The notes under the pieces: model-generated
Databases searched by the model: none
The model's input: the letters and a program-made list of their open reading frames with translations, nothing else
Told to the model about the DNA's origin: nothing
Program-made: the position numbers and the translations under genes
In this document: one piece after another, positions 27,674-60,845 of the stretch
Position numbering within the stretch: the first letter of the stretch is position 1
Layout of the letters: each line of letters begins with the position of its first letter
NCBI GenBank assembly: GCA_015063305.1
Contig: SVUJ01000009.1
Span: 1-64,000, forward strand
DNA from: Oscillospiraceae bacterium
Lineage (GTDB): Bacteria > Bacillota > Clostridia > Oscillospirales > CAG-272
Length of the DNA: 64,000 nucleotides
Direction of reading: 5' to 3'

Positions 27674-27801
27674 GTTTGTTTTTAGGGTCGTCGAGGGAGC
27701 CGACCCCTACCGATTGTAAATATCGTTTTCTAAATCTCAGTGAAATCAAATTTTAATGCTTGTGGTAGGGGTCGGCGCCCTCGACGACCCTAAAAACAAA
27801 C
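27674..27801. repeat. REP-type palindromic element, family 1
   Basis: 38-bp terminal arms (one starts GTTTGTTTTTAGGGTCGTCG) match at 37 of 38 positions in opposite orientation around a 52-bp AT-rich centre. The last 27 bases before the A/T tail of the right arm recur exactly inside the REP-associated transposase gene at 60573-60599. Confidence 0.9.
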
Positions 27802-57298: not shown

Positions 57299-57415
57299 GG
57301 GGCGTCGAGGACGTCGCCCCCTACAATTTGGAATGTCCGTTGCGGTGAATTACACTATAGCAGATTGTACGTTAAATGTTAGTTAACCTGTAGGGGGCGA
57401 CGTCCTCGACGCCCC
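57299..57415. repeat. REP-type palindromic element, family 2
   Basis: Perfect 27-bp inverted arms (one starts GGGGCGTCGAGGACGTCG) around a 63-bp AT-rich centre. The left arm recurs exactly in the REP-associated transposase gene at 60742-60768. Confidence 0.92.
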
Positions 57416-59890: not shown

Positions 59891-60331
59891 ATGATAATTG
59901 CATTTTGCGGACACTCGGAATATGAAAGAAGTCCTGAGGATGAAGCAAAGGTACTTAACTTGTTAGAAGAAAGGGTTAAAGGTAAGTCTGTTGAGTTCTT
60001 TTTAGGGGAATATGGGAATTTTGATGATTTTGCTTATAACTGTGCAAAAAAATTCAAAAAAGCTCACCCCGATACTAAACTTATATTTGTAACCCCCTAT
60101 ATGTATGCAAAGGAATATCAGAAAAATCGTTTTGATATTATACTGTATCCCGTTCTTAAAAATGTGCCTGATAGATATGCAATTCCATATCGCAACAAAT
60201 GGATGGCAGAGCAAGCAGACATTGTTATATCATACATAACCCATGCGTACGGTGGTGCATACGCGATGTACAAGCATGCAAGAAAAAAGGGTAAGGAGAT
60301 ATACAATGTTGCATTAAGGGATCTTTGTTAA
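59891..60331 (+). CDS. SLOG/DUF1273-like Rossmann protein
   Basis: 146 residues. N-terminal strand and turn MIIAFCGHSEYERSPEDE (compare GxGH starts of YpsA-type proteins), central LIFVTPYMY, and the C-terminal nucleotide-loop region RNKWMAEQADIVISYITHA, GGAYAMYKHARKKGK, NVAL. SLOG proteins bind nucleotide- or NAD-derived ligands and occur in several bacterial immunity systems; others are housekeeping. Repressed by the divergent XRE protein (inferred from operators). Confidence 0.75.
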   Translation: MIIAFCGHSEYERSPEDEAKVLNLLEERVKGKSVEFFLGEYGNFDDFAYNCAKKFKKAHPDTKLIFVTPYMYAKEYQKNRFDIILYPVLKNVPDRYAIPYRNKWMAEQADIVISYITHAYGGAYAMYKHARKKGKEIYNVALRDLC

Positions 60332-60350
60332 AGTAGATTTATATATAAAT

Positions 60351-60379
60351 CCCCGACAGATATTCAAGCTCTGTCGGGG
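60351..60379 (+). terminator. Terminator after SLOG-like gene
   Basis: CCCCGACAGA/TCTGTCGGGG stem, then TGTTTTATT. Confidence 0.88.
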
Positions 60380-60383
60380 TGTT

Positions 60384-60794
60384 TTATTCTTCCGTATATA
60401 ATTCATCATAATACCAGCGCATAGGATTTTCGTAGATGTATTTGGTTCTTGTTTCGTAATCCTCGCGATCACGAATGATGTGTTCTATATACCCACGTTG
60501 AAAAATGTTGTTTCCAATTTCTTTATTGCAAAAACGTTTGAACGTGGAAACAATATGCGGTAACATTTCGTTGGTAGGGGTCGGCGCCCTCGACGACCCG
60601 TTCCCGAACATAAACAACATAATATGAATATGGTTCGGCATAATTACATATCTGTCAACCTTGACATCATCATAAAAATCATTTAATTGAGCGATATATT
60701 TCTCTGCTGTTTTTCCGTATGGCGATAATTCTACGTTCTTCGGGGCGTCGAGGACGTCGCCCCCTACAATGTAAGATAAAATTTGACATTTCAT
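60384..60794 (-). CDS. REP-associated tyrosine transposase (Y1/HUH), N-terminally short
   Basis: 136 residues from the ATG after GGGTGATG. HUH motif MPNHIHIM; Tyr candidate region REDYETRTKYIYENPMRW. Relatives I know start about 35-40 residues earlier with a KRK...YFVTICT strand that forms part of the fold; here the frame begins after that strand, next to a terminator, so it is probably truncated. Two stretches of the coding DNA (60573-60599 and 60742-60768, encoding SSRAPTPT and VGGDVLDAP) are identical to the arms of both REP families in this window. Confidence 0.8.
   Translation of the reverse strand: MKCQILSYIVGGDVLDAPKNVELSPYGKTAEKYIAQLNDFYDDVKVDRYVIMPNHIHIMLFMFGNGSSRAPTPTNEMLPHIVSTFKRFCNKEIGNNIFQRGYIEHIIRDREDYETRTKYIYENPMRWYYDELYTEE
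60573..60599 (+). repeat. REP family 1 arm inside the transposase gene
   Basis: 27 bp starting GGTAGGGGTCGGCGCC, identical to the right arm of 27674-27801. Confidence 0.9.
60742..60768 (+). repeat. REP family 2 arm inside the transposase gene
   Basis: 27 bp starting GGGGCGTCGAGGACG, identical to the left arm of 57299-57415. Confidence 0.9.
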
Positions 60795-60817
60795 CACCCA
60801 ATCTATTATACCACAAA

Positions 60818-60845
60818 ATCGGCAGAGGCGCAAGCCTCTGCCGAT
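60818..60845 (-). terminator. Terminator of rpe
   Basis: Perfect 12-bp stem ATCGGCAGAGGC/GCCTCTGCCGAT followed by TTTGTGG on the minus strand. Confidence 0.8.

Follow-up and report, generated by a model that had tools for sequence, protein, structure and literature searches.

The link between a RAYT enzyme and its REP family, like the origin of new REP families, is an open question, and the link is normally inferred from REPs that flank the gene. The locus described here raises the question from the inside: why should the coding sequence of a RAYT gene carry REP arms in frame? The gene lies in the window, by which we mean the whole 64,000-nt stretch of contig SVUJ01000009.1 (Oscillospiraceae bacterium, GCA_015063305.1) that was analyzed. 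In-frame REPs in RAYT genes are already known, as the main text of Quentin 2018 (PMC6006769) describes such insertions in TnpA_REP subclass 2.4, generally between the HuH and Y motifs and unique to that subclass, and assigns them to a variable segment after the HUH strand (beta3-alphaC) that is placed away from the DNA. The reading that we find rather probable is that the window gene is a decayed mosaic from a clostridial RAYT lineage that holds an inverted pair of cognate REPs inside the gene, likely a cis substrate of its own enzyme.

The original prediction, made from the letters of the window, proposed that the gene contains REP arms in frame, is truncated at its N-terminus, and may be a relic of a RAYT. 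The arms lie where it placed them, and over no fewer than 26 bp they have exactly the sequence of arms in the dispersed palindromes at 27685-27790 and 57299-57415 (Table 1). The open frame runs from 60384 to 60833 on the minus strand, with a probable ATG start at 60794, and DNA alignment with intact paralogues shows that about 35 of their N-terminal codons are missing. The encoded protein, being truncated, matches NCBIfam NF047646 with an E-value of 6e-13 and 48.8 bits, which is below the curated cut-off of 80 bits, while its match to Pfam Y1_Tnp is marginal (E 0.13). Relic status is supported by the NF047646 match, the truncation, and the mosaic structure described below. The copy also has F in place of a GTAG-contacting W and does not look active, whereas the intact enzymes of the lineage do.

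Table 1. Features of the RAYT locus and of the dispersed elements that share its arms (window coordinates).
Feature	Position	Strand	Basis or remark
RAYT-like HUH/Y1 transposase gene, relic	60384..60794	-	Open reading frame and translation, NF047646, paralogue alignment, mosaic test
Site 1, in-frame REP arm B GTAGGGGGCGACGTCCTCGACGCCCC, encodes VGGDVLDAP	60742..60767	-	Same arm dispersed in genome
Site 2, inverted REP arm A GTAGGGGTCGGCGCCCTCGACGACCC on plus strand	60574..60599	+	Gene reads complement, (G)SSRAPTPT
HUH motif (H-I-H), between both arms of the gene	60624..60632	-	Translation; HUH columns invariant in 53 relatives
Upstream palindrome CGGCAGAGGCTTGCGCCTCTGCCG, then TATAAT box	60805..60843	-	Common to paralogues with other arms
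Dispersed REPIN, family A	27685..27790	.	Two inverted arms, GTAG inward, 54-nt spacer
Dispersed REPIN, family B	57299..57415	.	Two inverted arms, GTAG inward; spacer of 65 nt, conserved across copies

Different parts of the window gene resemble different types of paralogue. Between the arms, its identity to paralogue C10a is 93.6%, with the next best at 85%, while 3' of site 2 the nearest genes are the A-type L069 and L161 (82%) and identity to C10a drops to about 0.57-0.83 in 30-nt windows. These alignments mark the gene as a mosaic of a B-type core and an A-type 3' part, and the mixed arms therefore reflect B-type by A-type recombination near site 2, as segment similarity shows. This event gave site 1 its B and site 2 its A, and the first beta strand was lost by deletion. 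The original prediction took the presence of both REP families to be characteristic of the gene; this is true of the window copy, which is mixed because it is a mosaic, but it is no rule, as intact genes carry one family twice. Upstream, RAYT genes with differing arms share a palindrome (CGGCAGAG..CTCTGCCG) that leads into a TATAAT box and then the start codon; a strict pattern finds it at 16 of 106 loci, and three of the four own-genome copies have it as well. This shared element may be the 5' end of a mobile unit or a common promoter.

The genome that supplied the window contains four RAYT genes, the window copy and the intact paralogues C10a, C7, and C10b. Each intact paralogue has an identical REP at both sites in inverted orientation (B/B in C10a, C/C in C7, E/E in C10b), and each of these families is dispersed as well. 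C10b was at one point taken for an armless paralogue, wrongly, since the matched pair GTAGGGGCGATTCACGAATCGTCC is found at both its sites; this family, E, has about a dozen dispersed copies. Exact counts over 790 kb of the 1.58-Mb genome, in-gene copies included, gave 27 for arm B, 20 for arm A, and 6 for the third variant, C (GTAGGGGTCGACGTCCTCGGCGACCC). There is no intact A-type RAYT in the assembly despite the A-type REPs there. The spacers of the dispersed elements are conserved, at 54-55 nt for A and 64-66 nt for B, and the in-gene pair shares the arms alone with them. Orientation differs too: GTAG faces inward in the dispersed A, B, and C elements of this genome and outward in the in-gene pairs, which are separated by about 142 nt of coding sequence. 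Among 88 arms in the genome, those within open frames of at least 149 aa are all in RAYT genes except for two frames, one of 313 aa, apparently spurious, and one that runs antisense to the window RAYT gene. A pair of T-type arms at C2:53169-53336 was considered as a further RAYT relic and rejected, as it encodes nothing RAYT-like.

A much wider set of relatives shows how general this arrangement is. Homologues were found in 47 of 98 related genomes, and the addition of 80 loci, picked by similarity from named genomes that are nearly all clostridial, brought the total to 111 distinct genes. Most of the data come from metagenome-assembled genomes, and the frequency of matched pairs given here holds for this lineage rather than for all RAYTs. 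In 95 of the 111 genes, the top-scoring pair of inverted 22-mers on either side of the HUH motif matches at 20 or more of 22 positions, while 333 synonymous-codon shuffles of the same genes reached 19 at best. Canonical long RAYTs of the phylum, used as a negative control (16 of 30 parsed), gave only 14-17 of 22. The suggestion that homologues in other Clostridia have similar segments was correct, on a scale much larger than envisaged. The arms could be anchored at GTAG in 108 genes, where they occupy the same two positions of the coding sequence, one on each side of the HUH motif; 63 distinct sequences occur at site 1. The GTAG of site 1 is in frame 0 in 106 of the 108, and the end of site 2 falls in one frame in 99 genes and in a second frame in the remaining 9.

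Site 1 matches site 2 of its own gene at a mean of 16.8 of 18 positions and site 2 of other genes at 9.3 (108 genes), whereas 2000 permutations gave a mean of 9.40 (sd 0.32) and a maximum of 10.4; kinship among the genes cannot produce this match, as the two sites are not mutually homologous, but it does lower the effective sample. The two arms also change together. Across gene pairs, similarity of arm 1 correlates with that of arm 2 at 0.92, compared with 0.19-0.25 between arms and core or tail, and both arms fall in the same cluster in 94 of 108 genes. In a phylogeny that left the arms out, arm 1 changed at least 24 times and arm 2 23 times, with 28 changes in the joint state, against 47 expected from independent change. 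A search for mosaicism at the arms among the 108 genes found none besides the window copy. Genomes with several RAYTs (G025, G022) have arms that differ between genes and are matched within most of them and nearly matched in the rest. Exceptions consist of degraded arms in L139, L155, and L159 and a Leptolinea homologue (L151) without arms. A pair of the gene's own REP family at two fixed sites is the normal state of intact genes in this gut-Clostridia RAYT lineage, although it is not strictly universal.

The conservation of the arms is that of DNA. Over 36 pairs of close genes, divergence at third codon positions is 0.9% within the arms and 28.7% in the sequence between the arms. In a set of 36 different arms of 26 nt, covariation through G-C, C-G, A-T, and T-A is seen at stem pairs 7-24, 8-23, and 9-22, and positions 11 and 20 form an unpaired purine-purine mismatch in 35. 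When folded as single-stranded DNA, this 26-nt class has an unpaired GTAG foot, a 6-bp stem, the purine mismatch, 2 bp, and a tetraloop. The in-gene arms consequently have the unpaired GTAG foot and imperfect palindrome by which GTAG-REPs are defined. GTAG together with a stem irregularity or loop determines the recognition of REPs by TnpA_REP (PMC8266576), and the GTAG-REPs recognized in that system have the same layout as the arms here. Because the third positions are frozen in the arms, it is evidently the DNA (hairpin, GTAG foot, and match between arms) that is maintained, with the peptide merely tolerated. Homologues that encode the same peptides with unrelated DNA in genomes without such REPs, which the original prediction had named as the observation that would overturn it, were sought and none was found; the arm DNA is kept even at third codon positions.

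Structurally, the family conforms to the IS200-like Y1 fold, with H86 and H88 invariant and Y152 present in at least 90% of 53 relatives. An AlphaFold2 model of L080, a close relative, was made from a 53-row alignment and has a pLDDT of 84.7. Its best solved match in Foldseek is the E. coli RAYT bound to a REP hairpin (PDB 4er8, E 2.5e-7), and the GTAG-contacting residues W, Q, E/D, H, and R are kept, the stretch IWQR..DHIIR aligning to IWQPRFWEHAIR of 4er8. Site 1 is located in a loop between two strands of the model, while site 2 is a disordered loop (94-109, pLDDT under 50) between the HUH strand and the next helix. Both are in segments that are shorter or absent in 4er8, and the REP sequence would accordingly occupy tolerant loops of the predicted enzyme. 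The REP at site 2 is inserted in frame between the HUH and Tyr motifs, which is the trait of subclass 2.4 (group 4).

Cognate REPs accompany the gene usually, though not always. At least three REP copies matching the A/B/C/D, T/U, or R patterns were found in 34 of 47 genomes with a homologue and in 3 of 51 without one (Fisher p 2e-12), and reversed control patterns had no matches. The arm of L143 is present in 38 copies in its own genome and in none of 18 others. The L142 arm occurs as three exact copies, all in its own genome, and two of these are the probable in-gene pair. The genome of L116 contains the in-gene pair alone, with six copies of that arm in another genome. G035 and the L116 genome are the cases where arms occur without dispersed copies, and the existence of such gene-only genomes means that seeding of dispersed copies need not follow. 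A cognate REP lies within 1 kb outside the gene for only 8 of 62 genes; the flanking REPs of a REPtron are mostly missing here, and the REPs are inside instead. As a separate observation, G019 (C14, C16, C85), in which no RAYT homologue was detected, repeatedly has U-type arms in pairs that face outward at a distance of 126 nt and may be a RAYT-less derivative of the in-gene arrangement.

How the two arms are kept alike is illustrated by L072, a gene of the 98% complete genome G035. Its 27-nt arm unit is repeated in tandem at both sites, with two extra units at site 1 and one at site 2, such that 55 nt are identical from GTAG, while its near twin L064 (97.6% identity elsewhere) has single arms. 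A search of G035 that allowed up to three mismatches found no copy of this arm outside the gene. Because the same new joint is present at both sites in a genome without dispersed copies, one arm has, at the level of sequence, been copied directly onto the other in L072; similar copying may be supposed for other genes.

Several explanations for the matched pair need to be weighed. One is that the pair arose by chance or that two loop peptides are conserved as any coding sequence would be. Nothing speaks for it except the regular GTA-GGG and CCC-TAC codons, the synonymous shuffles never equal the observed match, and frozen third positions are confined to the arms. It was rejected as a source of the match and retains a negligible probability. 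A second view, in which the arm-encoded loops aid REP recognition so that arm and specificity change together, draws on the fact that arm and peptide necessarily change in step and that both loops are insertions relative to the E. coli RAYT. It is very improbable given that the site 2 loop is disordered in the model, that the arm reading frame differs between genes so that the peptide is not conserved, and that Quentin et al., in their main text, put this region away from the DNA (PMC6006769). Under control at the level of RNA, translation or stability of the RAYT message would be limited by mRNA hairpins formed by the arms, or by a long inter-arm duplex. The arms are indeed perfect inverted repeats about 142 nt apart that form strong hairpins, and hairpin control of IS200-type transposases is established (cited in PMC3733652). 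We nevertheless think it improbable, as such control would work without a GTAG foot on each strand and without arms identical to dispersed DNA repeats, and only the site 1 arm has GUAG-hairpin polarity on the mRNA.

The main rival is that mobile REPs land on or convert two tolerated sites with no gain for the gene, the low divergence of the arms reflecting homogenization by dispersed copies. REPs within coding genes are known elsewhere (PMC3733652), site 2 is in the model a disordered loop that would tolerate inserts, and gene and genome share arm families. Matched arms do persist, however, without dispersed copies in G035 and in the L116 genome, no other coding gene of the window's own genome clearly bears an arm (88 arms), and the same two positions are held across 63 arm sequences. 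The gene-only genomes and the lack of clear arms in other coding genes weaken this explanation, and we regard it as possible but doubtful. In the cis-substrate reading that we favor, the in-gene pair would most likely work as a REPIN-like single-stranded substrate, and the encoded protein would bind or cut the arms in cis. Enzyme and REP specificity would then be inherited and transferred as one unit, in-gene arms could seed or re-tune a dispersed REP family, and purifying constraint together with direct arm-to-arm copying would uphold the match. The outward GTAG of the in-gene pair, compared with inward in dispersed A, B, and C, speaks against simple identity with a REPIN. A bolder extension, which we put forward tentatively as a rather unlikely proposal, treats these genes as self-templating elements: the coding sequence would be the master copy of the substrate, a change in one arm would be copied across, redefine the REP family, and move horizontally with the gene, and new families would be born in RAYT genes and spread from there.

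It had been left open whether the REP arms derive from the gene or a REP became coding sequence. Because the arm regions are shorter or absent in 4er8 and many unrelated REPs occupy the same two sites, the evidence favors entry of REP sequence into the gene, which may since serve as a source; the alternative of a gene-derived REP is disfavored, with polarity short of proof.

Compared with known systems, the closest is TnpA_REP/RAYT subclass 2.4 (group 4), which likewise is an HUH/Y1 enzyme with GTAG-REPs in frame in its own gene. As described in the main text of PMC6006769, it differs from the genes here in their two fixed sites around the HUH motif, the matched inverted pair of one family, concerted switching, and the infrequency of adjacent REPs. 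In the literature searched, which takes in the text of PMC6006769, we found no statement of a matched two-site pair, of its concerted turnover, or of third-position conservation. The E. coli RAYT/REPtron (4er8) shares the fold, a GTAG-hairpin with a stem mismatch, and the GTAG-contacting residues, but its gene is flanked by REPs and its loop insertions are shorter or absent. REPINs and BIMEs (Bertels and Rainey 2011, PMC3116915) resemble the dispersed elements in having two inverted GTAG-REPs with a conserved spacer, unlike the in-gene pair with its coding spacer and outward GTAG. Di Nocera 2013 (PMC3733652) reported REPs that lie in a variety of genes, and also RAYTs with REPs or TIRs at their flanks; the Rickettsia palindromic elements and the REPs inside genes are read as protein, as here, although they occur in many unrelated host genes, whereas the clear coding hosts here are RAYT genes only, at the same two sites. 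Since each gene of this lineage would spell its own substrate twice in coding sequence, enzyme/REP pairs become readable directly (63 arm sequences in the sample). The lineage also offers a clear natural case of a DNA stretch constrained far more as DNA than as protein inside an active-looking gene, with two inverted copies under concerted evolution.

Several minor observations were made alongside. Some REP families are orphans, as the assembly has no cognate RAYT for them (G000; C1, C2, C6, C8, C16, C17): GTAGGGACAGGCGTCCTCGACTGTCC, with 10 exact copies, and, in half of the window's own genome, GTAGGGGAGGGGCTTGCTCC (10 copies) and GTAGGGGCGACCATCGGTCG (6 copies). At L014:10484-10771 a nested composite palindrome holds a B-type REPIN within E-type arms in mirror order (E-, B-, B+, E+). 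A REPIN at L031:9045-9161 has both arms C-type, and one at L032:12636-12751 has arms one letter off C around a B-like spacer, which suggests that both arms of dispersed elements switch together as well. Finally, a terminator-like hairpin, CCCCGACAG..CTGTCGGGG (window 60320-60400), lies between the RAYT relic and its convergent neighbor and has a relative at C6:8349 with 89% identity over 64 bp.
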